Shown: piece by piece, positions 34,208-45,948 of the stretch | Position numbering within the stretch: the stretch's first letter is position 1 | Layout of the letters: every line of letters begins with the position of its first letter | DNA from: Litchfieldia sinesaloumensis | GTDB lineage: Bacteria; Bacillota; Bacilli; Bacillales; Bacillaceae_L | NCBI RefSeq assembly: GCF_900156865.1 | Contig: NZ_LT732529.1 | Location: forward strand, 328,300-392,299 | Length of the DNA: 64,000 nt | Direction of reading: 5' to 3' | Notes under the pieces: generated by a model | The model's input: only the letters and a program-made list of their open reading frames with translations | Databases searched by the model: none | Told to the model about the DNA's origin: nothing | Translations under genes and position numbers: made by a program

Positions 34208-35449
34208 TTATTTAAAAAGTACCTTGATAATGCTATAGCTAAAAAATATGATCGAAGCGACAACAAAACTTTGACCGATAGAGAAAATTAGCAAATGACC
34301 GGTTGCTATCGATAAAACGACAATTAAGCATCCAGCTACGAATCCTGAGAATATAGGAATTGCCACTTTCTCGTCAATCATTTGCTTTAAGGTAGGTACA
34401 TCCTTTTTTCCAATAAGCTTGCTGTATCGGTGTGTCCACCAGAGAAACGGGATAATTTTATATAGATAACCGAGAATACTACAAGCAATCCACAAAAAGA
34501 TGTAAAGAAAAATAAGGACACCGTACATTTCATATAATCCAGGTAAAAATGAGAGAATTACAGCCGAAAAGTGAATAATTAAACCGAAACCTATTGCAAT
34601 TAACGAGAATAAAAATGGTTTATCAAGCTTTTTCTTTAATCTAACCTTGATGATGGTGGTAATGTGGTAAGAAAATATAGCAAAACCGGTGAACAGGAGG
34701 GTCATACCAACCTGTAACAATAGATAATTCTCCGTCATGAAGCTAGAAATAGTAACAATCAGCCCACTAGCATACATTATATAGACCCATTTAGCTGGCT
34801 TCATTGAAAAACCATGTGCTAGTGAAAACATCGGGACCATCTTATAAGAAAATCCAAATATTAAGAACGTAAACCAGCCAGCAACACCAAGTAGAATATG
34901 ACTTTTTAAAACTGCAATATGATTCAAGTTCGCAATTCCCATACCTAAATTCATGATTAACAATATACCAAGTGTAATCGTTACTAATAAACAGATTAGC
35001 GCACTACCTACCAACACGGTTAGAATATTTTTTTTTGCTTGCTTTTTCATTGTCATAAACATTTGGACGATAAATAGCAGAATCCCAACTAAAGCTAGTA
35101 GGCCGGTAAAAATAGATATTGTTGGTGAAAAGGAAAGAGTGATACCGAATCCACCAAATCCAAACGCTGTAATCCAAAACTGAATAAACCCAAATTTCTC
35201 ACTCCAAATCGGAGTTAGAAATGCTACGGGGACAAGCTGGTACATAGCGCCCATCGCAACCATTAATGCCCATCCAAGTATAAGTAAATGGGCCGAAGAG
35301 AGAAGGGCGGGTGTTCGAAAATTTCCGTCAATCACCATATGACCATTAAATAATAGGATTACTTGGGATGCGACTAAGGCCACGACACTAAAGATAATAA
35401 ATGAGAATGGCAGCCTTATATCTGTTTCATTCGATAATTGAGGCATCAT
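34208..35449 (-). CDS. Polytopic membrane protein, NnrS/cytochrome oxidase subunit I-like
   Basis: A 413-residue protein with about twelve membrane helices. Conserved His residues occur at helix starts in AHLLILGWALMVAMGAMYQLVPV and SHILLGVAGWFTFLIFGFSYKMVPMFSLAHGF, reminiscent of NnrS and of the CoxI helix II region, where His binds heme. The full set of copper ligands (HH pair, GHFH) is absent, so it is not a heme-copper oxidase. NnrS proteins help cells resist nitrosative stress. Its place after two DUF2249 genes under FNR- and Fur-type sites supports an anaerobic or NO-linked role. AAGGAG lies ten bases before the ATG. Confidence 0.7.
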   Translation of the reverse strand: MMPQLSNETDIRLPFSFIIFSVVALVASQVILLFNGHMVIDGNFRTPALLSSAHLLILGWALMVAMGAMYQLVPVAFLTPIWSEKFGFIQFWITAFGFGGFGITLSFSPTISIFTGLLALVGILLFIVQMFMTMKKQAKKNILTVLVGSALICLLVTITLGILLIMNLGMGIANLNHIAVLKSHILLGVAGWFTFLIFGFSYKMVPMFSLAHGFSMKPAKWVYIMYASGLIVTISSFMTENYLLLQVGMTLLFTGFAIFSYHITTIIKVRLKKKLDKPFLFSLIAIGFGLIIHFSAVILSFLPGLYEMYGVLIFLYIFLWIACSILGYLYKIIPFLWWTHRYSKLIGKKDVPTLKQMIDEKVAIPIFSGFVAGCLIVVLSIATGHLLIFSIGQSFVVASIIFFSYSIIKVLFK

Positions 35450-35977: not shown

Positions 35978-35993
35978 TGTGACATGAATCACA
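35978..35993 (-). promoter_or_regulatory. FNR box before DUF2249 operon
   Basis: TGTGACATGAATCACA is a perfect match to TGTGA-N6-TCACA. Its centre is about 41.5 bp upstream of the start site predicted from the TATCAT -10, the spacing of an activated promoter. Confidence 0.85.
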
Positions 35994-36028
35994 ATATCTA
36001 TAAATTTGTACCCCAGATTAATTATTCC

Positions 36029-36721
36029 TTAAAAGATTTCATCATGTAACTTCATATGGTCTAATAGGTAATATCCATCCGGAGTCAAATCCACAATTTG
36101 TTTCTTTTTCAATACAGAAATTGTACGACTCACAGACTCGCGTGTGGTTCCAATCATGTTAGCAAGTTCACGATTTGTAAAATGGGTTGTAAGCTTGAAC
36201 CGAGTCCCTATCTTTTCACCATTGCTTCTACATAAACGGAGCAAGAGCATTATTATTTGTTCTTGCGTATTTAATAAGATTTGTTCCTCCAACCGCTTTT
36301 GCAGGTCAATTATTTTTTCACCAAGAACTTTAAAAATTTTGATGCAAAGTTCTGGGTTTTTAAGTAAAATTTCTTCGAATTGATCAATAGGGGTAAAGAT
36401 AATGTTTGTGTCCTCGATTACTTCAGCATGGGCAGGATATCCACCCTTTCTGAAGAAGCCAGCATGTGGGAACATTTCGCCTGCTTCAAGCACTGAAACA
36501 ATTTGTTCCTTACCGTGCATATCAGACTTGTAAATCTTGACCTTTCCAGATTGTATGAAGAAGACACGATCAAGTGGATCATCTTGCATAAAGATAAACA
36601 TTTTTTGTTTATATAATCGTGATTGAGATATATCAACAATTGGTTCGAGTTCTTCTGTTGTTAATTCCCGAAATAAGGGAACTCCTTTCAATTGTTCACG
36701 AATGGATGGTAGTCCCATCAT
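36029..36721 (-). CDS. Crp/Fnr-family regulator without iron-sulfur cysteines
   Basis: A 231-residue regulator: N-terminal cyclic-nucleotide-binding-type barrel (LYKQKMFIFMQDDPLDRVFFIQSGKVKIY), dimer helix, and C-terminal helix-turn-helix (TNRELANMIGTTRESVSRTISVL). The Glu and Arg residues for TCACA recognition are present (TTRESVSR). Unlike the Fnr at 40080 it lacks a C-terminal Cys cluster, so it senses something else, perhaps NO through heme as in DNR/NnrR (inference). A GTG at 36727 overlaps the AAGGAG, so ATG 36721 is used. An FNR box lies upstream. Confidence 0.9.
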   Translation of the reverse strand: MMGLPSIREQLKGVPLFRELTTEELEPIVDISQSRLYKQKMFIFMQDDPLDRVFFIQSGKVKIYKSDMHGKEQIVSVLEAGEMFPHAGFFRKGGYPAHAEVIEDTNIIFTPIDQFEEILLKNPELCIKIFKVLGEKIIDLQKRLEEQILLNTQEQIIMLLLRLCRSNGEKIGTRFKLTTHFTNRELANMIGTTRESVSRTISVLKKKQIVDLTPDGYYLLDHMKLHDEIF

Positions 36722-36766
36722 CCTCACTCCTTGTACTAGTTAACTATGATTGATATCTCCATTTTT

Positions 36767-36808
36767 AGTGTAGCAATATTACTTTTTTAAACTGTGATTT
36801 ATATCATA
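36767..36808 (-). promoter_or_regulatory. FNR box and -10 of Crp/Fnr paralogue gene
   Basis: TGTGATTTATATCATA (36793-36808) has one mismatch to the FNR consensus. TACACT (36772-36767 on the minus strand) is a -10 at close to the spacing expected for a box at -41.5. Confidence 0.65.
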
Positions 36809-36844
36809 CCTAGTGAGTAATACAATTAATGTTCAAAAATTAGA

Positions 36845-36876
36845 CACAAAAAAACCAGGAGTTATTTCTCCTGGTA
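36845..36876 (-). terminator. Terminator of the small Cys-rich gene
   Basis: On the minus strand, ACCAGGAG / CTCCTGGT is followed by TTTTTTTG. Confidence 0.88.
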
Positions 36877-36877
36877 G

Positions 36878-37012
36878 TTAATCGTTGGTCTCTTCCGCAC
36901 AATCAAAACAAAGAATTCCTTGTTTATCTTCTGATACGACTCCGTTAATGAATCCATCCAAACAATAAATTTCTTTTTTACATACGATACAAGTACTTAC
37001 AAGTTCCTTCAT
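36878..37012 (-). CDS. Small Cys-rich (zinc-ribbon-like) protein, 44 aa
   Basis: A 44-codon frame with ATG after GGGGTGA and its own strong terminator. The protein has two Cys-x-x-Cys pairs (CIVC near residue 8 and CFDC near residue 35) about 24 residues apart, plus an extra Cys at 17, the layout of a one-zinc knuckle. It resembles Gin/SR1P-type mini zinc proteins of Bacillus only in general layout. Position beside the anaerobic regulators suggests a small redox or regulatory role; this is inference. Confidence 0.7.
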   Translation of the reverse strand: MKELVSTCIVCKKEIYCLDGFINGVVSEDKQGILCFDCAEETND

Positions 37013-37140
37013 CCAATTCACCCCGTTACACCTTTTAAACTCTACTAATAAGAGCTAGATAAGAGATTTATGTGGTATATATAGAATTTCTTTTATTATC
37101 GCATACAATTCTAGACATATGATTAAAAACATAACTACAT

Positions 37141-37183
37141 AGTGATAAGATTCACTTCATCTTGTGTTGGGTGTAGTTACAAT
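37141..37183 (+). promoter_or_regulatory. FNR box and -10 before DUF2249 gene
   Basis: AGTGATAAGATTCACT (37141-37156) retains the GTGA-N6-TCAC core. TACAAT (37178-37183) sits exactly where a -10 is expected for a box centred at -41.5. Confidence 0.75.
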
Positions 37184-37214
37184 GGAGCCATAAAACATAA
37201 GGAGGAAGATTAAT

Positions 37215-37445
37215 ATGGTATTTGCAGCGAAAGTAAACGCACCAGATTACGCACCGAAGGATAAGCATCCTACTATATTTAGAACATTTGACAGTTTACA
37301 ACCAGGTGAAATCATGGAGCTATCAAATGACCATGACCCAAGACCACTACAATACCAATTTATGATGGAGCGTGGCAATGCTTTCACTTGGGAATACCTC
37401 GAGCAGGGCCCAGAAGTATGGCGAGTTGCAATTGGTAAGAAATAA
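37215..37445 (+). CDS. DUF2249-domain protein (monocistronic)
   Basis: A 76-residue protein: HPTIFRTFDSLQPGEIMELSNDHDPRPLQYQFMMERGNAFTWEYLEQGPEVWRVAI. It is the Trp/His-containing DUF2249 type that is often found beside RIC proteins. The HDPRPL block is the family signature, with His and Asp that could bind metal. AAGGAGG precedes the ATG. It is expressed alone from an FNR-type promoter and ends at a strong terminator. Confidence 0.88.
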   Translation: MVFAAKVNAPDYAPKDKHPTIFRTFDSLQPGEIMELSNDHDPRPLQYQFMMERGNAFTWEYLEQGPEVWRVAIGKK

Positions 37446-37474
37446 CTAATTTTTATTCCTCAAACTACTGACAG

Positions 37475-37513
37475 TGTAGACAAAGTTGCTTTAGCTTTGT
37501 CTACATTTTTTTT
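37475..37513 (+). terminator. Terminator after DUF2249 gene
   Basis: Stem TGTAGACAAAG / CTTTGTCTACA (37475-37485 with 37495-37505) followed by TTTTTTTT. Confidence 0.92.
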
Positions 37514-37585
37514 GTAAAAGATTCTGTTTGGAAGACCGTTAATTTCATGCTACGATGTAGAAAAAGGAAAAAGGGATGTTTAATT

Positions 37586-38191
37586 ATGAATCAACCAAAG
37601 GTGACTGGAATTGTTTTGGCGGGTGGAGAATCAAGAAGATTTGGAAGTCATAAAGCATTTGCAAAACTTCATGATAGGGAATTTTATGATTATGCAATTG
37701 ACGCATTGGATAAGAACGTGAGCCAGCTTTACCTTGTAAGTCATCCTGATTTAGAAGAAGAGTTCCAAAACCGAACAACCGCAATAATAGTACAAGATCT
37801 ACCAGAATTTAGAGGGGACGGACCACTTGCTGGTATATATACAGTCATGCAGAAAACCATGTCGGATTGGTTTGTAGTATTACCTTGTGATACACCTTTT
37901 GTTACAAATAATCTAATTAAGCAGCTTATCTCCTTCACTAATGATAAGAACATCGACGCGATTGTTCCCGTTATCAACGAAAGAAAGCAACCTCTTATAG
38001 CCGTTTATCATTCTAGAGTATCCGAAAAAATTGAAAAAATGCTTATGGACAAAAATCTAAAGATGAGTAGTTTACTTGCTGAATGCAACGTTAAATACGT
38101 GACAAATCAAGAATTACAATTCCAAGATATGGAGTTTGAGAATATCAACAATATAAGTGAATACGAAAAATTACAACAAAAGCCAATTTAA
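37586..38191 (+). CDS. mobA: Molybdenum cofactor guanylyltransferase MobA
   Basis: A 201-residue nucleotidyltransferase that attaches GMP to molybdopterin to make the MGD cofactor of nitrate reductase and related enzymes. The GTP-binding loop LAGGESRRFGSHKAF, the GDGPLAGI segment and the metal-binding PCDTPF are intact. The frame begins at 37547, but ATG 37586 after AAAAAGGGATG gives the family N-terminus (NQPKVTGIVLAGG). It is separated from the other Mo-cofactor genes (47.0-49.5 kb). Confidence 0.92.
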   Translation: MNQPKVTGIVLAGGESRRFGSHKAFAKLHDREFYDYAIDALDKNVSQLYLVSHPDLEEEFQNRTTAIIVQDLPEFRGDGPLAGIYTVMQKTMSDWFVVLPCDTPFVTNNLIKQLISFTNDKNIDAIVPVINERKQPLIAVYHSRVSEKIEKMLMDKNLKMSSLLAECNVKYVTNQELQFQDMEFENINNISEYEKLQQKPI

Positions 38192-38227
38192 GGTCCGTAC
38201 AAGTGGGCACAAATTGGCTTTTGTTTT
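38175..38227 (+). terminator. Terminator after mobA
   Basis: Stem AAAAGCCAATTT / AAATTGGCTTTT overlapping the mobA stop codon, followed by GTTTT. Confidence 0.75.
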
Positions 38228-38310
38228 AAATTTCATAGCTCATTCACTCATAATTTTCTGAAAAGTACGATAAAATGATAATATGAAGTCTTTGGAAGGA
38301 GGGATATTAC

Positions 38311-38604
38311 TTGAGAGTAGGCTTGATTCTAGGTATATTAACCTCTGGTCTTCTATTGATAATAGGTTTGTCTACTCAACAATTTGAAACGTATTCTGTT
38401 ATTTCGGGGACACTTGGGATTATCTGTTTTTTGCTTGCAGGAATCGTATCTGATGCTTTAACAGGCGAGGACCGGATTAGGTCGAATTATTTCTCAGAAA
38501 ATAAAAAAAATCATAAAAAAGGAATCCGGTGTTCGTATTTATTCTTCCTCTTGGGGGCTCCGAACCTACTAGTAGCTGTAGTGTTAACCCTCAATTACAT
38601 TTAA
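38311..38604 (+). CDS. DUF5316-like small membrane protein
   Basis: A 97-residue protein with three hydrophobic helices (about 2-18, 28-47 and 76-95) and a charged loop (GEDRIRSNYFSENKKNHKKG). It resembles the DUF5316 family of small Bacillus membrane proteins as I recall it; function unknown. It starts at a TTG eight bases after AAGGAGGG. No FNR box is visible before it, so its place in the anaerobic block may be incidental. Confidence 0.72.
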   Translation: MRVGLILGILTSGLLLIIGLSTQQFETYSVISGTLGIICFLLAGIVSDALTGEDRIRSNYFSENKKNHKKGIRCSYLFFLLGAPNLLVAVVLTLNYI

Positions 38605-38663
38605 AATCCTTCAATTTAAATATTCTTCAATTTTCACTCACGAAATTAATGATAAGATTCAGG

Positions 38664-38790
38664 TGACTTGATTAGGATTATACGCAGTGCTCGTATAATG
38701 TTCATCATCTCTGTCAGGTCGGCAAGAGACTCTAAAGTTTGGAACAGGACTGCCTGTCTAAGCTGGAATTATAGCACCTTTCACTTTTCC
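38664..38790. other. Intergenic segment with strong hairpin, possible structured RNA
   Basis: The gap 38605-38894 holds a GC-richer portion that encodes no protein. ATTATACG-7-CGTATAAT (38677-38699) is a perfect 8-bp stem, and a little further on CAGG-ACTG-CCTG (38745-38756) and flanking complementary stretches could fold. No T-run terminator follows. It lies immediately upstream of the FNR promoter, so it is not the leader of the radical SAM gene unless an earlier promoter is used. Confidence 0.35.
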
Positions 38791-38823
38791 CATTTGTGAA
38801 CAATTTTAAACACCTCCGTAACC

Positions 38824-38866
38824 TGTGATGTACCTCACATTATTCACTTATTTATAGTGTTAAAAT
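38824..38866 (+). promoter_or_regulatory. FNR-activated promoter of radical SAM gene
   Basis: TGTGATGTACCTCACA (38824-38839) is a perfect FNR consensus. TAAAAT (38861-38866) as -10 puts the box centre at about -41.5. Confidence 0.88.
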
Positions 38867-38894
38867 GTGGGCATTAACAAGGGAGGTTTGCCTC

Positions 38895-40016
38895 ATGTTT
38901 GAAAGAGACTATAATAAGGATCCATTTATTGTCATTTGGGAGCTTACAAGAGCTTGCCAATTAAAGTGCCTACATTGCCGCGCAGAGGCACAGTATACCC
39001 GAGACCCACGAGAGCTTTCCTTTGAAGAGGGGAAAAAGCTAATTGACCAAATATATGAAATGAATAATCCGATGCTTGTATTTACTGGTGGAGATCCCTT
39101 GATGCGCCCGGATGTCTATGATATTGCGGATTATGCAATTAAAAAAGGTGTACGTGTATCAATGACTCCAAGTGCAACACCAAATGTTACAAAAGAAGCA
39201 ATTGAAAAAGCCAAGGAAGTTGGCTTAGCACGTTGGGCTTTTAGTCTAGATGGTCCAAACGCTGAAATTCATGACCATTTCCGCGGTACAAAAGGATCTT
39301 TTGATTTAACGATGAAAGCCATTAAATATTTACATGAACTTGAAATACCTATCCAAATCAATACGGTAATTTCACGCTATAATGTCCATGCGTTAGATGA
39401 AATGGCAAAATTAGTTGAGGATCTTGATTGTGTACTATGGAGTGTCTTTTTCCTTGTACCCACTGGACGTGGAAAGGACACCGATATGATATCTCCAGTT
39501 GAACATGAAAAAGTGTTCCGCTGGTTATATGATCTAAGTAAACGTGTAAAGTTTGATATTAAAACAACGGCTGCTCAGCATTATCGTCGTGTAGTTATTC
39601 AATCAAAAATGCGTGAAACAAAAGAGATGGAAAAACAAATTCAATATGCAGATGCGCTAATGCAAGGTAAAACAGGGCAAATAGATGGACTTGGCAGAGC
39701 GCCACAAGGGGTAAACGATGGTAATGGGTTTGTCTTTATCTCTCATATTGGAGATGTGTTCCCAAGTGGCTTGTTACCAGTAAAAGCAGGGAATGTCCGT
39801 GATACACCATTAGCTGAAATTTACCGTGAATCACCAATCTTTAAAGATTTACGTAATCCAGATAAATATAAAGGGAAATGTGGAGTTTGTGAATTTAGGC
39901 ATGTATGTGGTGGCTCACGTTCCCGTGCTTATGCTATGACTGGGGATTACATGGAGAGTGAACCATTCTGTGTATATATCCCAGAAGCAATGCGTAAGAA
40001 GGAAAAGACTTTGTAA
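38895..40016 (+). CDS. Radical SAM/SPASM protein, NirJ/AhbD-like
   Basis: A 373-residue radical SAM enzyme with Cys21-x3-Cys25-x2-Cys28 (CQLKCLHC) for the SAM-binding cluster, TGGDPLMRPD, and a C-terminal SPASM-type Cys set (GKCGVCEFRHVCGGSRSRAYA ... PFCVY) for a further cluster. The overall pattern matches the group around TIGR04053, related to heme d1 protein NirJ and the alternative heme enzyme AhbD. A heme-modifying or peptide-modifying role is possible; no precursor peptide gene was seen nearby. ATG 38895 after GGGAGG is the start rather than 38865. A perfect FNR box drives it. Confidence 0.85.
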   Translation: MFERDYNKDPFIVIWELTRACQLKCLHCRAEAQYTRDPRELSFEEGKKLIDQIYEMNNPMLVFTGGDPLMRPDVYDIADYAIKKGVRVSMTPSATPNVTKEAIEKAKEVGLARWAFSLDGPNAEIHDHFRGTKGSFDLTMKAIKYLHELEIPIQINTVISRYNVHALDEMAKLVEDLDCVLWSVFFLVPTGRGKDTDMISPVEHEKVFRWLYDLSKRVKFDIKTTAAQHYRRVVIQSKMRETKEMEKQIQYADALMQGKTGQIDGLGRAPQGVNDGNGFVFISHIGDVFPSGLLPVKAGNVRDTPLAEIYRESPIFKDLRNPDKYKGKCGVCEFRHVCGGSRSRAYAMTGDYMESEPFCVYIPEAMRKKEKTL

Positions 40017-40036
40017 ATTAAAAAAAGTGGAGAAAA

Positions 40037-40064
40037 GAGACCCATGGAGAGCCCCATGGGTCTT
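40037..40064. terminator. Hairpin between radical SAM gene and fnr
   Basis: Stem AGACCCATGG / CCATGGGTCT between convergent genes. On the minus strand it is followed by a CTTTT stretch, so it best serves fnr. Confidence 0.7.
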
Positions 40065-40079
40065 CGTATTTAGACAGGC

Positions 40080-40784
40080 TTATTCAATACTACAATATTT
40101 AGCAGGGCATTCCTCACACTGAATTTCTTTCTTTATGTAATCTAAGTCGTGTATTGTAATATATCCTTTTGAAACGGTAATGATCCCTTTTTCTCTTAAA
40201 TCATGGAGCATCCGATTTACGCTTTCTCTTGTTGTAGCACAGAAGTTAGCGAGTTCTTGGTTTGTTAAATGTAGGTCGATTAGAATTCCGTTATCCTTTT
40301 GAATACCGTAGCTATTTGTCATTCTAATTAGGGTTGAGTACATGGCTCCTTTTTTACCTAACAAAACAAGATCTCTAAACTTTGTTTGAGTTTTTCGGAA
40401 ATGATCACTCATCCATTTCATGAATTCAAATGCAAGGGATGTATTTTCAAAGAGTCTTCTCTCCAACTCATCCTTTTGAATCACTGCAATTTTGCTATCC
40501 TCTAAAATTCTGCAATCAAAAAGATATTTTGGTTCGTCTGTAAATAGTGTCAATTCGCCTACAATCTCATTTTGACTGCAAATCCGCAATGATAATTCAT
40601 TTCCATCAGATGTACCTTTGCTTACTCTAACACGTCCTGAAAGAATGAGATAGAGTTCGGAAGACTTCATACCTTCCCGGAATAAATATTTTCCCTTTTC
40701 CATATGAATGACATGGTTGGCTGACTTTAAAAGCTCGTTTAATTCGTTTGAAAGTGTTGGCTTTTCTAATGTCGTTGGACCCAT
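40080..40784 (-). CDS. fnr: Anaerobic regulator Fnr
   Basis: A 234-residue Crp/Fnr-family activator with the Bacillus-type C-terminal cluster CEECPAKYC, whose three Cys plus an Asp hold a 4Fe-4S cluster that is lost with oxygen. The helix-turn-helix TNQELANFCATTRESVNRML contains the Glu/Arg recognition residues for TGTGA-N6-TCACA. In B. subtilis Fnr turns on narK, narGHJI and other anaerobic genes. ATG 40784 after GGAAGGTGG is chosen over an upstream ATG. An FNR box upstream suggests autoregulation. Confidence 0.93.
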   Translation of the reverse strand: MGPTTLEKPTLSNELNELLKSANHVIHMEKGKYLFREGMKSSELYLILSGRVRVSKGTSDGNELSLRICSQNEIVGELTLFTDEPKYLFDCRILEDSKIAVIQKDELERRLFENTSLAFEFMKWMSDHFRKTQTKFRDLVLLGKKGAMYSTLIRMTNSYGIQKDNGILIDLHLTNQELANFCATTRESVNRMLHDLREKGIITVSKGYITIHDLDYIKKEIQCEECPAKYCSIE

Positions 40785-40830
40785 AGTTACCACCTTCCTA
40801 AGCAGGAATGCTATAATTAGTTCTATATAA

Positions 40831-40873
40831 ATCATATAATGTATACCAGTTAGTAGGTGTAAAATAAATCACA
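40831..40873 (-). promoter_or_regulatory. FNR box and -10 of fnr
   Basis: TGTAAAATAAATCACA (40858-40873) deviates from consensus at one base. TATGAT (40836-40831 on the minus strand) is a -10 placed for a box centred near -41.5. The divergent modB promoter could also use the box, but no well-placed -10 is seen on that side. Confidence 0.75.
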
Positions 40874-40952
40874 CTTATGTCATAATTGGTGCAGGAATAG
40901 TAGATTAAATAGCTTTATGCATTTTTGAACATTTTTTAACAATTGAGGTCTA

Positions 40953-41609
40953 ATGATGGATTACACTTTTTGGGCACCTATAAAACTATCAATATCTATT
41001 GCAATAACGGCTGGCTTACTTGTTTTACTTCTTGGTTTGATTTTAGGTAAATGGATGGCACATAGGCGTTTTAAAGGGAAGTTATTTATTGAGACTTTTT
41101 TAATGTTGCCATTAGTACTGCCACCTTCAGTTGTAGGCTTTTTATTAATTGTGATATTCGGAAGAAATAGCTTTATCGGATCAATAATTGAAAAATTAAC
41201 TGGTCACTCCATCATGTTTACTTGGTGGGCTGCAGTGATTGCTGCAACGGTTGTTGCTTTCCCACTCATGTACCAATCCGTAAAGACTGGATTCCAATCC
41301 GTAAATCCTGATATTGAGGATGCGGCGAGGACGGATGGAGCAAGTGAATTCAATATTACTTTATTTGTTTCGATTCCATTAGCGATAAAAGCGATTGTAA
41401 CAGGATTTATTTTAAGTTTTACAAGAGCGCTAGGAGAATTTGGAGCAACATTAATGTTTGCTGGTAACATACCAGGAAAAACTCAAACATTGCCTACTGC
41501 TATCTATGTAGCGATTGATAGTGGAAATATGGAATTGGCTTGGCTCTGGGTTATAACAACGATATTCATTTCGTTTCTCATGCTAGCATCAACCTACTTA
41601 ATTAAGTAA
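40953..41609 (+). CDS. modB: Molybdate ABC transporter permease ModB
   Basis: A 218-residue permease with five or six helices: FWAPIKLSISIAITAGLLVLLLG at the N-terminus, LPLVLPPSVVGFLL, the EAA loop EDAARTDGASEFNITLFVSIPLA and RALGEFGATLMFAGN, all typical of ModB. It would import molybdate together with binding protein ModA and ATPase ModC, but neither gene adjoins it here, and it sits between terminators as a single gene. GAGG lies five bases before the ATG. Confidence 0.92.
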   Translation: MMDYTFWAPIKLSISIAITAGLLVLLLGLILGKWMAHRRFKGKLFIETFLMLPLVLPPSVVGFLLIVIFGRNSFIGSIIEKLTGHSIMFTWWAAVIAATVVAFPLMYQSVKTGFQSVNPDIEDAARTDGASEFNITLFVSIPLAIKAIVTGFILSFTRALGEFGATLMFAGNIPGKTQTLPTAIYVAIDSGNMELAWLWVITTIFISFLMLASTYLIK

Positions 41610-41612
41610 ACA

Positions 41613-41650
41613 TAAAAAGACACATTCTTGACAAGAATGTGTCTTTTTAT
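41613..41650 (+). terminator. Terminator after modB
   Basis: Stem AAAAAGACACATTCTTG / CAAGAATGTGTCTTTTT followed by ATGTTTTTT; long and strong. Confidence 0.92.
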
Positions 41651-41665
41651 GTTTTTTAATCACTT

Positions 41666-41681
41666 TGTGACAAACTTAACA
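41666..41681 (+). promoter_or_regulatory. FNR/NnrR-like half-degenerate box before CuA reductase operon
   Basis: TGTGACAAACTTAACA matches TGTGA-N6-TCACA with one mismatch. No -10 is found at the exact position seen at the other promoters, so it may be used differently or by the second Crp/Fnr protein. Confidence 0.5.
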
Positions 41682-41742
41682 GATTTAAGCCAAGGCAATA
41701 TGTGACAATTCTGGTGAAAATAGAAATTAGGAGGGGGATCCT

Positions 41743-42267
41743 TTGTACCAAACAGCAGCTTGGTATCTATCCATTATTTTAATAACTTTAATTACCGTGA
41801 TTTTTATTACAGTCGTATTAAAAACAAATAAACGAAGAGAGTATGAATCGATTCAGAAAAAATGGTACCGCTTTAGAACTTTTTATTTCATCGTATTAGT
41901 AGTTGTATTTGGTACGGCCACGTATTTTACACTTCAAGATCTTCCGTTTGAAAGACCCGTATATGGTCAAGAGGAAAATCCAGTAATTGTTGATGTAGAA
42001 GCAATTCAATTTGGGTGGAATATGAGCAAAACGGAATTTAAAGTCGGTGAACCTATCGAGTTTGATGTTACAAGTTCTGATGTTAACCATGGATTTGGTA
42101 TCTATGACGTAGACATGAATTTATTAGCCCAAACTCAGGCGATGCCGGATTATACAAACACTGTATACTACACTTTCACAGAGCCTGGTACGTATCAAAT
42201 TTTATGTATGGAATACTGTGGACTTGCACACCATGTCATGATTGGTGAAATTGTTGTAACAAATTAA
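41743..42267 (+). CDS. CuA-domain subunit II of heme-copper (probable NO) reductase
   Basis: A 174-residue protein with two N-terminal membrane helices (about 5-25 and 44-63) and an extracytoplasmic cupredoxin domain. All CuA ligands are present: an early His in VNHGFGIY and the CMEYCGLAHHVM block (Cys-x3-Cys-x3-His-x2-Met). It receives electrons and passes them to subunit I, the next gene, twelve bases downstream. The TTG start has AGGAGGGGG five bases upstream. Short B-type (ba3-like) oxidases and the CuA nitric oxide reductase of Bacillus azotoformans share this arrangement. Confidence 0.88.
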   Translation: MYQTAAWYLSIILITLITVIFITVVLKTNKRREYESIQKKWYRFRTFYFIVLVVVFGTATYFTLQDLPFERPVYGQEENPVIVDVEAIQFGWNMSKTEFKVGEPIEFDVTSSDVNHGFGIYDVDMNLLAQTQAMPDYTNTVYYTFTEPGTYQILCMEYCGLAHHVMIGEIVVTN

Positions 42268-42279
42268 AGGAGGGTAACA

Positions 42280-43767
42280 ATGTCTACTAATCTTCAAGTT
42301 GGAGGGACACATACCTCCGGAAAAAGAACAATTACAATGTATTTACTAACAGGAAGTCTGATAATTTTAGCAATGATGATATTTGGGGTCTTGATGCTTC
42401 TTGCTCAAGGGAAAATGATTAATATAGACCCAGGTTTTTTTTATGAGATTATGACAGTCCATGGAACCGGTATGATTGGTGCAGCTGCGTTATCTGCAGC
42501 AGCTGTTATGTGGTACTTCCTTAGTAAATATGTTCAATTAAGTAAAAACATTTTAATTTTGAATTTCTTTACCTTCATCTTTGGAGTAGTAATGGTGTTG
42601 GTAGGTATCTTTGGATTTGATTTTGCAGGTGCATGGACCTTCTTGTATCCTCTACCAGCAATTTCGGCTGCTGGCTGGGGAGTAACGGGAGCTGCTCTAT
42701 ATCTAGGGGGTATGCTAATACTAGGTGTGGGGTTTTTACTACTAAATTTAGATGTTGCCAGAGCGATTATTAAAGAATACGGAAGCTTAGGTGGAGGTCT
42801 AGGGTGGTCAATTGTTTTTGGTAAAGAAAAAGGCTATGGTCCACCACCTGCTGTAGTAGCAAGTACAATGGTTGCAATTGTAAATACAACGGCATTAATT
42901 GCAGGTGCAACAGTGCTGATTATGAACCTTATTAATCTATTTATACCATCAATTTCAATCGATCCAATGCTTGCAAAAAATCTAACATATGCGTTTGGAC
43001 ATATATTTGCAAACTCCATTATTTACATGGGCGTTATTGCAGTTTATGAGATTTTAGCAACTTATACAAATCGTCCTTGGAAAGCAAATCGTCCTTTCTT
43101 AATTGCGTGGAATTGTTCAACATTATTTACGATTACAATTTATACTCACCATCTGTTGATGGACTTCTCTTTACCGAAGTGGATGTTAATTGTTGGCCAA
43201 GTGTTATCTTATGCAAACGGGTTACCCGTATTAGTCGTTACAGCTTATGGGGCACTAATGATTGTCTATCGATCAGGTATTAAGTGGGACATTGCTTCAT
43301 CATTTATGTTTCTATCGATGTTTGGTTGGGTCGTTGGGGTAGTACCAGCGATTATTGATGCAACAATCGTTGTCAACCATGTAATGCATAATACAAAATG
43401 GGTTCCAGGACATTTCCATATGTACATGGGATTAGGTGCAACCGCTATGCTATTTGGTTTTATGTATTACCTGATAAAAATAAGTGGAAAAGAAAAGGAT
43501 TCAGCACTTGATCCAATTAGTTTCTGGGTGTACATTATGTTTTTCCTAGGATTATGTGGATCCTTCCTATACTCCGGAAAGGTAGGGGCACCTAGAAGAT
43601 GGGCAGAGCATTTCCAAGAGTGGGTTTCTTATGACCGCATTGGAGCAATTTTTGGAATCTTTATCGTTCTTACCGTATTAACATTCATTATTCGTTTTTG
43701 GAACTATGCAAGATCAATAAATGGTAAGGATCAGGTAAAGACAGGACAAAATCGCCATGTTGCGTAA
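42280..43767 (+). CDS. Heme-copper reductase subunit I, probable CuA-type nitric oxide reductase
   Basis: A 495-residue protein with twelve or more helices. Low-spin heme ligands are His61 (VHGTG) and His380, the active-site heme ligand is His378 (VPGHFH), and metal ligands are His241 plus the His290-His291 pair (THHLL). The decisive difference from oxidases is the helix VI motif: GHPxVY of B-type oxidases reads GHIFAN, so the redox Tyr crosslinked to the copper His is Asn245. That replacement marks NO reductases derived from B-type oxidases. Context (RIC, FNR boxes, NnrS-like, Mo cofactor) supports reduction of NO to N2O, with electrons via the CuA subunit. Experimental proof is needed. Confidence 0.82.
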   Translation: MSTNLQVGGTHTSGKRTITMYLLTGSLIILAMMIFGVLMLLAQGKMINIDPGFFYEIMTVHGTGMIGAAALSAAAVMWYFLSKYVQLSKNILILNFFTFIFGVVMVLVGIFGFDFAGAWTFLYPLPAISAAGWGVTGAALYLGGMLILGVGFLLLNLDVARAIIKEYGSLGGGLGWSIVFGKEKGYGPPPAVVASTMVAIVNTTALIAGATVLIMNLINLFIPSISIDPMLAKNLTYAFGHIFANSIIYMGVIAVYEILATYTNRPWKANRPFLIAWNCSTLFTITIYTHHLLMDFSLPKWMLIVGQVLSYANGLPVLVVTAYGALMIVYRSGIKWDIASSFMFLSMFGWVVGVVPAIIDATIVVNHVMHNTKWVPGHFHMYMGLGATAMLFGFMYYLIKISGKEKDSALDPISFWVYIMFFLGLCGSFLYSGKVGAPRRWAEHFQEWVSYDRIGAIFGIFIVLTVLTFIIRFWNYARSINGKDQVKTGQNRHVA

Positions 43768-44365
43768 AAGTGTTGGAATTCTATTTGCACTAGTAGCGGG
43801 TCTCTCATTGCTATGGGTAGGTACAGATGGATTTCGTGCTTTTACAGCAGAGAAAGCAAGGATAATAGAATTAGAGAGGGAGCAGCCGAAGCTCCCTACT
43901 GCTACATTAATTGATTCAAATTCACAATCCTTCCAGTTACAAGAATTAGCGGGGAAGTACGTACTTTTGACCTTCATGTATACTACTTGTGGGGACGTTT
44001 GTCCCGTATTAGAACGAAATTTTGCTGAAATCTATGAACGTATTCCAGAGACGATTCTAGGAAAAGATGTTGTTTTAGTGAGTATCAGTTTCGATCCCGA
44101 GCATGATTCTCCAACAGTCTTACAATCATACTCAGACCATTTTGGAGCTGATGGAAATCAGTGGAAGATGGCGACAATTCAAGATGAGAAAGAACTACAG
44201 AGTGTATTAGATACGCTTGAAGTCATTGTTATACCAGATGAATATGGTGGGTATGAACATAATTCTGCATTTTATGTGATTAATCCTGAAGGTAAACTAA
44301 CAAATATCTTTGATTATCAAACTCCGTTAGCGGTTGTGGAATATTTAGATAACTTTCTATTTTAG
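43757..44365 (+). CDS. SCO1/SenC copper chaperone
   Basis: A 202-residue membrane-anchored thioredoxin-fold protein: N-terminal helix (about 5-25), then the copper site TTCGDVCP (Cys-x3-Cys) and a distal His in GGYEHNSAFYVI. SCO proteins deliver copper to the CuA centre, which fits its position directly after the CuA subunit II/subunit I pair; it overlaps the subunit I gene by 11 bases. It probably matures this reductase specifically. Confidence 0.92.
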   Translation: MLRKSVGILFALVAGLSLLWVGTDGFRAFTAEKARIIELEREQPKLPTATLIDSNSQSFQLQELAGKYVLLTFMYTTCGDVCPVLERNFAEIYERIPETILGKDVVLVSISFDPEHDSPTVLQSYSDHFGADGNQWKMATIQDEKELQSVLDTLEVIVIPDEYGGYEHNSAFYVINPEGKLTNIFDYQTPLAVVEYLDNFLF

Positions 44366-44374
44366 AGGTGAAAT

Positions 44375-45025
44375 ATGCACCGTTATCCTTTTTTATTTTT
44401 TGGGCTACTTTTATTTCTAATCGTTTCAATCCCGAATGTAAAGTCTTTGTTAGAAGAAAACATGGTCGGTACGATGCTTATACAATACCCTTTGTTAGTC
44501 GGAAGTGGATATCTTCTAGCGAAGGGATTTCCAAGAAGATGGCGAGGCTTTTTCTTGTATTTCAATGAAAATGGAATTGCAGGGATAGTATTCACGATAT
44601 GTGTTGTAGGGTTTTGGATCTTGCCACGGTCAATTGATTCGGCATTGAATAATCCAATTATGGAAATTGCAAAATATGGTAGTTTATCACTACTCGCAGG
44701 GGTGTTTTTATCTTATAGCTGGCAGTTGCTTGGCCCAATTAGTAAGTCTTTTATTTGGGCAAATCTTATCTCAATGATTTTTGTAATGAGCTGGCTTTAT
44801 TCAGTGTCACCAGCAAGACTTTGTAATAATTATCTTGTGACAGCACAGCAAGAGCTAGGAAAAGCAATGTTTATTTTAGGACTCGTGATATGCATGTTAT
44901 TTATAGGGAGAGTTTTTGTTGGGAAAACGGTATTTAGCGAGCCTCCAAAGAAGAGCAATAGGAATTGTATGAGCGTGAAAATAGCATCTAAGGATGTTAA
45001 TGAGGGGTTAATGCGAAAAAATTGA
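44375..45025 (+). CDS. Polytopic membrane protein of unknown function in CuA reductase operon
   Basis: A 216-residue protein with five or six hydrophobic helices, nine bases after the SCO gene and last in the operon. Charged residues are few: an RRW turn after helix 2, LPRSIDSALNNP in the middle, and SPARLCNNYLVTAQQELGKAM before the last helix. This weakly resembles copper-delivery proteins of the CtaG type (CtaG-like PxxL...QQxLG ending), but I cannot assign it firmly. The tail (KKSNRNCMSVKIASKDVNEG) is hydrophilic. An assembly role for the reductase is inferred from position. Confidence 0.75.
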   Translation: MHRYPFLFFGLLLFLIVSIPNVKSLLEENMVGTMLIQYPLLVGSGYLLAKGFPRRWRGFFLYFNENGIAGIVFTICVVGFWILPRSIDSALNNPIMEIAKYGSLSLLAGVFLSYSWQLLGPISKSFIWANLISMIFVMSWLYSVSPARLCNNYLVTAQQELGKAMFILGLVICMLFIGRVFVGKTVFSEPPKKSNRNCMSVKIASKDVNEGLMRKN

Positions 45026-45048
45026 GCTGAAATGATTTCAGCTCAATT
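45020..45048. terminator. Terminator after CuA reductase operon
   Basis: Stem AATTGAGCTGAAA / TTTCAGCTCAATT (45020-45032 with 45036-45048) then TTACTTTG, between convergent units. Confidence 0.82.
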
Positions 45049-45089
45049 TACTTTGTACATAGTAATCTATTGCAACGCGCAGTAAATTT

Positions 45090-45797
45090 TTATTCTCCAG
45101 CTGCTGCTCTCGGGAATAGAATATTATTTTCTAAATGAATATGTTCAAAAAGGTCTGATTCGAGAGCTTCTAATCGTTGGTAAACAAGACGGTATGTTCC
45201 GCATGCACCGACTGGAGGCTGGAAATCATTCGTAATAGCGCGAATTTCTTTAATAATTCTACCTGCCTCATCGTGATCGTCCTCTAATTCTGCTACATGC
45301 TTCTTCACAAATTCATGATTTTCTTGTGTAGGTTCTTTTTCAAATCTAACAATAAGTGGGAATGATTCGGCTTCCTCTTTGATTGTATGTTGTTCAAGCT
45401 CTACCTTTAATTGATTAAATAGGGAATGAACTCTAGCAAGATGTTGATGATTACCGCCATGTACTCGTAGTACCTTTGTTACATATGGACTTAATTGTGG
45501 AAGTTCTTCATTTAAATAACGGTGATGTTTATTTATAATATGGTCAATTAGTTCGGAATAACTTGCTGCCTTCCAATCTACTGTTTTTTCAGTTAGATCC
45601 TTCATGTCTTGATATAAAGTATTTAATTTTTCTAGAACCTCGTCTTTTGGTAAGTTTCTTTCCTCAATGGCATCTATAAGTGGTCGGTTACCGCCACAGC
45701 AAAAATCAATTCGAAGTTTTTTGAATAGGTCTCCAGCCTTTGGAAACTCTGTTACAATGTCTCCGATTATATGTTGTTCTGTAAAACTTTGCACCAT
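45090..45797 (-). CDS. scdA: RIC/ScdA di-iron protein for repair of iron-sulfur clusters
   Basis: A 235-residue protein with the N-terminal domain bearing the FCCGG Cys pair (near residue 35) and a hemerythrin-like HHE four-helix bundle with His and Glu ligands (IINKHHRYLNEELPQL, VHGGNHQHLARVHSLF, EDDHDEAGRIIKEI, HIHLENNILFPR). RIC (YtfE/ScdA) restores Fe-S clusters broken by NO and oxidants. AGGAGG lies ahead of the ATG. A palindromic FNR-type box lies upstream, divergent from the chemoreceptor gene. Confidence 0.94.
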   Translation of the reverse strand: MVQSFTEQHIIGDIVTEFPKAGDLFKKLRIDFCCGGNRPLIDAIEERNLPKDEVLEKLNTLYQDMKDLTEKTVDWKAASYSELIDHIINKHHRYLNEELPQLSPYVTKVLRVHGGNHQHLARVHSLFNQLKVELEQHTIKEEAESFPLIVRFEKEPTQENHEFVKKHVAELEDDHDEAGRIIKEIRAITNDFQPPVGACGTYRLVYQRLEALESDLFEHIHLENNILFPRAAAGE

Positions 45798-45829
45798 GTT
45801 TTTTACCTCCTAATAAATAAACTACTTAT

Positions 45830-45872
45830 AGCATATCTTTTTCAAATGAGAAATGAGGTGATACGTATCACA
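45830..45872 (-). promoter_or_regulatory. FNR box and -10 of RIC gene
   Basis: GGTGATACGTATCACA (45857-45872) contains the perfect palindrome GTGATACGTATCAC. TATGCT (45835-45830 on the minus strand) is a -10 at the spacing of a box near -41.5. Confidence 0.8.
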
Positions 45873-45904
45873 CTCTAAAGAAAACCTTTAAAATCGGTTT
45901 AGTT

Positions 45905-45948
45905 TGTGACGAAAATCACAGGTTCAAATAGGTCAAGTTTGGTACGAT
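45905..45948 (+). promoter_or_regulatory. FNR box and -10 of chemoreceptor gene
   Basis: TGTGACGAAAATCACA (45905-45920) is a perfect consensus. TACGAT (45943-45948) gives a start about 41.5 bp after the box centre. This also shows that the true start codon is downstream at 45987. Confidence 0.86.

Follow-up and report, generated by a model that had tools for sequence, protein, structure and literature searches.

The closest described systems to the operon analyzed here are nitric oxide (NO) reductases (NORs) with a CuA site from Schinkia (Bacillus) azotoformans LMG 9581: the purified type I enzyme CuANOR (BAZO_06399), and the product of BAZO_04705, given in the accessible part of Heylen and Keltjens 2012 (PMC3475470) as a putative qCuANOR type II. 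The operon is located at positions 41743-45025 of a 64,000-nucleotide stretch of the Litchfieldia sinesaloumensis genome, hereafter referred to as the window. An earlier interpretation made from the letters alone (the sequence-only reading) had proposed that it encodes a CuA-type NO reductase like that reported from B. azotoformans. Sequence comparisons together with the genome context make it highly probable that the operon encodes an NO reductase of the sNOR class (qCuANOR type II), which would convert NO to N2O.

The names bNOR and sNOR are used here as in the accessible parts of PMC11388526, PMC8756737 and PMC12569097; the first of these applies bNOR to CuANOR and keeps sNOR separate. The gene set norSY-senC-orf1 is listed in ammonia oxidizers in PMC4940428, and Table A4 of PMC8756737 (modified from Hemp and Gennis) gives sNOR with Asn from Betaproteobacteria, Silicibacter, Deinococcus and Geobacillus, assigning zero proton channels to sNOR and one to CuANOR. 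The accessible text of PMC5826923 describes CuANOR as electrogenic. According to PMC6967387, as far as accessible, sNOR transcripts are 2.7- to 10.8-fold up under O2 limitation, and transcripts are the basis on which this paper argues for a possible high-affinity O2 reductase function of the sNOR of Nitrosomonas europaea, NO versus O2 being left open. No report of a purified sNOR was found in the literature searched, outside which most subscription papers fell. The class has thus been described already, in 2012 (PMC3475470, accessible part) and in the sNOR literature, and the window operon adds a new member to it.

Active-site residues of the two core subunits

As judged from their layout, the four genes, all on the forward strand, constitute a compact operon. 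A norS-like gene for subunit II (41743-42267, 174 aa; open reading frame (ORF) list, Pfam COX2), with a TTG start located after AGGAGGGGG, is followed by a norY-like gene for the catalytic subunit I (42280-43767, 495 aa; ORF list, Pfam COX1), by a senC/SCO gene (43757-44365, 202 aa; Pfam SCO1-SenC) whose start overlaps the end of the subunit I gene by 11 bases, and by orf1 (44375-45025, 216 aa), encoding a polytopic membrane protein of a DUF1404-like, CuA-NOR-associated family. In agreement with the sequence-only reading, the six His ligands of subunit I (His61, 241, 290, 291, 378 and 380) are all present, serving a low-spin heme, a catalytic heme and a metal site of three His, and the B-type motif reads GHIFAN, which places Asn245 at the position of the cross-linked Tyr. 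The CuA site of subunit II, which had been called full, is indeed complete (H116, C155, E157, C159, H163 and M166). This subunit contains two N-terminal membrane helices (two hydropathy peaks above 1.6, three above 1.2) and a CuA cupredoxin domain, and in the PDB it matches CuA domains best (2lln, E 1.5e-16; the ba3-type 1ehk_B, E 3.2e-16).

Bacterial and archaeal genomes were scanned with a seven-sequence profile, and the best 80 of 414 relatives plus three plasmid loci were retained, giving 83 loci; L105 and L030, in which subunit I is incomplete, were excluded from the counts based on 82 rows. Asn occupies the Tyr position in 82 of the 83 loci, the remaining one (L109) having an ambiguous X, and it is also present in seven loci from the order of Noviherbaspirillum, which was searched separately; one of these loci shares its genome with L111. 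Because 82 of the 83 related loci carry it, Asn245 can be attributed neither to chance nor to a sequencing error. The six His are found in 81 loci (L105 and L030 being incomplete), subunit II in all 83, and the whole CuA set in 82, with L093 as the exception. In L093 (Neobacillus bataviensis) subunit II is truncated ahead of the CuA loop, as also noted in the accessible part of PMC3475470.

The cross-linked Tyr of GHxxxY was observed in 10/10 ba3, 4/4 other B-type and 2/2 A-type rows, and in 0/82 type II rows. The only nearby tyrosine candidates seen were Tyr249 and Tyr288. Tyr249, located one helical turn past Asn245 on helix VI, is invariant in the 82 type II rows and is Leu or Met in ba3 and type I; Tyr288, two residues ahead of His290-His291, is Tyr in 75 and Phe in 7 of the 82 rows. 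The tyrosine of the C family sits on the helix that carries the His pair (271-294), six residues ahead of that pair, and at this position the type II rows contain Thr or Val. A C-family-like tyrosine on helix VII is therefore disfavored, also in view of the seven rows with Phe at position 288. Taking the K-path residues to be Y244, Y248, S309 and T312 in Thermus numbering, the window protein has V, Y, V and T at these positions, so that it lacks the complete ba3 K path. Type I enzymes keep Ser309 (8/8 rows) and Thr312 and have Val in place of Tyr244; type II enzymes are additionally without Ser309, which is replaced by Val, Ile, Leu or Ala. The equivalents of Thr312 and Tyr248 are invariant in the 82 type II rows, and Glu257 is present in 81 of them. 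Thus, the window enzyme shares the six His and the CuA domain with the ba3/bo3 B-type O2 reductases (that of Thermus thermophilus, and L003/L126 in its own genome) but, unlike these, does not keep the Tyr together with the four examined K-path residues.

Relation to type I and type II enzymes

An IQ-TREE phylogeny was constructed from 55 rows, which include the window and 30 type II loci out of the 81 that remained. Window subunit I groups, with a support of 100/99, with the contig40 locus of S. azotoformans LMG 9581 (BAZO_04705), betaproteobacterial loci, Ruegeria pomeroyi and Thermomicrobium roseum. This type II clade stands apart from the ten Tyr-bearing ba3 rows, and the window accordingly lies outside the sampled ba3 oxidases, as an NO reductase had been expected to. 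The purified CuANOR BAZO_06399 (L121; contig 42, 105536-107227, in agreement with the table in PMC3475470) belongs to a different clade (98/100) that is sister to the Bacillota ba3 oxidases sampled (90/78). Two changes to Asn are required on this tree; a topology uniting the Asn rows of both types was, however, not rejected by an approximately unbiased (AU) test (p 0.20), and Asn may have arisen either once or twice. The long branches of L029 and L031 were flagged in the tree.

The likeness to the purified enzyme claimed by the sequence-only reading has to be revised: NO reductase remains probable from sequence and genome context, but the equation with BAZO_06399 does not stand. The two enzymes have the CuA subunit II, Asn, SCO and orf1 in common, and the single Asn clade allowed by the AU test would suit their being the same. 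However, their subunits I share 24% identity over 288 locally aligned residues and fall into separate clades, that of the window has 495 residues versus 563-564 in type I, and window subunit II has two N-terminal helices versus one in type I (PMC3475470, accessible part). The true counterpart of BAZO_06399 (74% identity) is another locus of the window genome, C3:4038651-4040339, which comes with an SCO gene and an orf1 of its own and is preceded by a perfect FNR-type box. That the window operon encodes the same enzyme as the purified one is thus extremely improbable. It fits instead the second S. azotoformans locus (BAZO_04695-04710), with which it shares the order SuII-SuI-SCO-orf1, Asn, CuA, a short 12-helix subunit I and 64% identity to BAZO_04705. 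The flanks differ, those of the window containing molybdenum cofactor (Moco) genes, modB, two Crp/Fnr regulators and RIC; none of the neighbor genes searched for was found at the S. azotoformans locus (L049). By sequence, then, the window genome encodes both a type I and a type II CuA-NOR, the window operon being the less studied one, and it fits a bNOR-plus-sNOR case. Of the 433 Bacillota genomes that have Nor or Nos in the accessible part of PMC11388526, 26 combine qNOR, bNOR and sNOR, and 2 have sNOR as their only NOR.

The proteobacterial sNOR operons (norSY-senC-orf1) have the same four-gene order as the window, and their products share about 45-55% identity with it (46.8% for the Ruegeria pomeroyi locus), the N. 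europaea and N. eutropha sequences being outside the comparison. The closest named relatives, among the matches listed, are Fredinandcohnia and Bacillus timonensis. Ruegeria is presumably the former Silicibacter. An AMO-family gene was found in one (G231) of the seven carriers from the order of Noviherbaspirillum; the AMO family also takes in methane monooxygenase. The gene order, the Ruegeria relative and this AMO-bearing carrier point to sNOR being type II. The accessible part of PMC3475470 disagrees, since it places the sNOR of N. eutropha with type I. The expectation that such enzymes are easily misannotated was correct, the Ruegeria and Thermomicrobium relatives being labelled 'cbb3-type cytochrome c oxidase subunit I'.

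The predicted structure of subunit I (pLDDT 85.2, pTM 0.88) contains 12 helices of more than 20 residues. Among the matches listed, its best one is the A-type oxidase subunit 3omi_C (VIA Z 39.6, root-mean-square deviation 2.9, 458 aligned). The 50 structure matches listed comprise A-type or quinol oxidases and, further down, cbb3; ba3 does not occur among them, which does not exclude a ba3 affinity. When searched as a single sequence, subunit I ranked A-type enzymes first, and the seven-row profile ranked ba3 first; type II may be closer to either the A or the B family. The common fold carries no information on the substrate.

Genome context and the probable reaction

The window genome encodes NarG and a nitrite reductase, NirK, which matches nitrite reductase 3x1e (E 9.7e-180), presumably from Geobacillus. 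NirK scores 195.8 bits on TIGR02376, under the cut-off of 296.3, as do likewise all ten NirK matches (threshold E <= 1e-30) in a sample of 150 genomes of the order. In this sample NirK is present in 3 of the 4 genomes that carry subunit I versus 7 of the 146 non-carriers (Fisher p 0.0008, uncorrected for kinship); the four carriers are not independent because two of them belong to one genus. NirS was not detected in the window genome, and neither was the cytochrome-c-like N-terminal domain of qNOR (PF22085), searched for in the whole genome and matched in the control Haloferax volcanii. Five COX1 matches exceed the cut-off (two A-type, one Tyr-bearing ba3 and two with Asn), and two more are partial and weak. 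This census and the lack of a qNOR match leave the two Asn enzymes as the sole NOR candidates detected. The four NosZ profile matches in the genome correspond to three CuA subunits and NirK, and the best reaches 58.2 bits versus a cut-off of 625. Since NirK is present and NosZ was not found, release of N2O is expected.

An FNR/CRP-type box, TGTGACAAACTTAACA (41666-41681, forward strand), starts 77 bp before the subunit II gene and has one mismatch to TGTGA-N6-TCACA. Of 9 close relatives, 7 have the identical 16-mer in this position; L043 has a one-mismatch version and L041 has none there. FNR-type boxes precede both CuA-NOR operons of the genome. The window contains eight boxes with at most one mismatch versus 2.3 expected from base composition, seven of them within 35978-45920, and three perfect ones versus 0.07 expected.

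Taking the ligands, Asn, CuA, SCO and the box from the sequence, and relying on general knowledge of the superfamily for the electron route, for NO as substrate and for FeB or CuB, we propose the following sequence of events. At low O2 an FNR-type regulator would switch the operon on, and SCO may aid the loading of CuA. Cytochrome c (or menaquinol) would reduce CuA; heme b would then relay the electrons to the site formed by heme b3 and FeB (or CuB), where two NO molecules would be coupled and reduced, yielding N2O and water. A site that lacks the tyrosine is presumably devoid of the usual electron and proton source for O-O cleavage; NO reduction would need two electrons only. The window enzyme would clear NO produced by NirK, alongside the type I CuANOR encoded elsewhere, and RIC may mend iron-sulfur clusters damaged by NO.

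NO reductase is the best reading because this CuA heme-copper enzyme is without the redox tyrosine, does not fall among the sampled ba3 oxidases and is encoded in a genome that also has genes for nitrate and nitrite reductases. Several observations weigh against it. Both the sequence and the model have O2 reductases as their best PDB relatives, which homology alone would give; one of the four carrier genomes of the order is without a NirK match; and linkage to RIC is found in only 10 of the 83 loci, nine of them the closest relatives. The rise of sNOR transcripts on O2 limitation (PMC6967387, accessible part) belongs here as well, and would suit a high-affinity O2 reductase for microoxic growth that dispenses with a His-Tyr cross-link or draws its tyrosine from another position, such as Tyr249. 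The invariance of Tyr249 in type II, where ba3 and type I have Leu or Met, and the frequent Tyr288 agree with such an enzyme, and the FNR box suits microoxic use equally well. Nevertheless, we consider an O2 reductase unlikely: the tyrosine is missing at the A/B-family place in all 82 rows, the C-family place is Thr or Val, Tyr288 gives way to Phe in seven rows, and the genome already carries a Tyr-bearing ba3 and two A-type oxidases.

A variant compatible with the NO reductase reading is a detoxifying NOR that takes its protons from outside and moves no charge, unlike the electrogenic type I CuANOR. The zero proton channels of sNOR in Table A4 of PMC8756737 and the replacement of Ser309, kept in type I, argue for this variant, but the conserved Thr312, Tyr248, Tyr249 and Glu257 positions would allow an altered path, and we rate its chances at slightly under even. 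Such a path is conceivable in a specific form, though we regard it as doubtful: the active-site Tyr would have moved one helical turn down helix VI, from the position of Asn245 to Tyr249, and Tyr256, Glu257 and Thr321 would form a re-routed K-type path, making sNOR an electrogenic NO reductase with possibly some O2 activity. If true, this would contradict the zero channels of that table.

For the NO reductase reading, the genome provides a clean Bacillaceae case for which no NOR candidates were found beyond two distinct CuA enzymes, of a kind that tends to be annotated as oxidases. According to the accessible part of PMC11388526, KEGG annotates bNOR and sNOR as coxA, and a genome of this kind would therefore be scored as being without NOR. 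A bNOR-like plus sNOR-like pair without qNOR would suit tests of sNOR on NO versus O2, which PMC6967387, in its accessible part, leaves open for nitrifiers. As a discovery the operon is ordinary; as a model case it is useful.

Accessory proteins and flanking genes

The SCO gene, the unassigned membrane protein and RIC named in the sequence-only reading correspond to ORFs at those places. Of the 83 loci, 39 have SCO and 49 have orf1 on the strand of subunit I and within 2.5 kb of it; these are lower bounds because contig ends cut some loci. SCO or orf1 is adjacent in 49 of the 51 loci whose CuA loop reads EYCG, and neither is adjacent in the 31 of 31 loci with EYCS or EYCA (L069, L072, L083 and 28 more). 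L069, L072 and L083, the three listed in full, consist of a bare two-gene pair. The sampled EYCS members (Neobacillus, Cytobacillus, Mesobacillus, Pseudoneobacillus and Ammoniphilus) form one clade (100/100), which therefore reflects one evolutionary event and not many. A CuA-less subclade was considered and rejected, since loci without SCO or orf1 nearby keep the full CuA ligands and only L093 is truncated.

Window SCO and its counterpart from the type I operon in the same genome share 47% identity, and an orf1 homologue also follows the SCO gene in that operon (L142, 7422-7982). Residues Q37, P39, W81, D88, W116 and C150-N151 are invariant among 37 aligned orf1 members. The DUF1404 match of orf1 is under the Pfam cut-off (25.3 versus 29.4 bits), and DUF1404 matched 19 of the 37 members at E up to 1. 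By its sequence, the 'unassigned membrane protein' belongs to a conserved family, being a DUF1404-like putative CuA-NOR accessory with an invariant C-N-x-Y that is shared by both types. A relationship to CtaG was not supported: Pfam Caa3_CtaG matched with E 0.026 only, in 2 of the 37 members, and comparison with the CtaG of the genome itself (PF09678, 202.9 bits) gave an hhalign probability of 0.5 percent. The orf1 fold gave no Foldseek match at E <0.001, the best one having a VIA Z of 6.7 over 62 residues.

RIC (ScdA/YtfE; 45090-45797, reverse strand), a di-iron iron-sulfur repair protein with ScdA_N and Hemerythrin domains (TIGR03652, 276.7 bits, cut-off 204.7), is a convergent neighbor outside the operon; as context for the enzyme it is a real neighbor, but the linkage is confined to the few loci given above. 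An FNR-type box with one mismatch, GGTGATACGTATCACA (45857-45872, reverse strand), is located upstream of RIC. A perfect box at 45905-45920 overlaps the listed GTG start (45906) of a methyl-accepting-type ORF, so that translation probably begins at a more internal codon such as ATG 45987. The operons of Ruegeria and Parasedimentitalea adjoin an Rrf2 regulator and a formate/nitrite transporter. L029, L030 and L031 (Rhodobacterales, Thermomicrobium) have a formate/nitrite transporter beside the enzyme, with an Rrf2 regulator in the two Rhodobacterales.

Upstream of the operon is the molybdate permease gene modB (TIGR02141; at 40953). The gap between them contains a terminator-like hairpin (41613-41656, no strand assigned) with a perfect 16-bp stem (41614-41629/41633-41648) followed by a T-rich stretch, read directly from the sequence without a program score. 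A Crp/Fnr-family regulator is encoded at 40080-40835 on the reverse strand (ORF list, Pfam). The region 35978-45920 has the look of an island of accessory genes for anaerobic nitrate respiration: its seven FNR/CRP-type boxes lie around two Crp/Fnr genes, Moco genes, a TIGR04053 gene, RIC and the NOR operon. The Moco genes near the operon are mobA (37547), modB, moeA (46991), mobB (48262) and moaE (48771). The TIGR04053 gene (38865-40016, 541 bits), with a perfect FNR-type box at 38824, encodes a radical SAM/SPASM protein for which the runner-up, heme b synthase AhbD, is under its cut-off. Finally, the gene at 34208-35449 (reverse strand) encodes a 413-aa membrane protein with a partial COX1 match below the cut-off, and it adjoins two FeS_assembly_P (DUF59/MIP18-like) genes and one Crp/Fnr gene.

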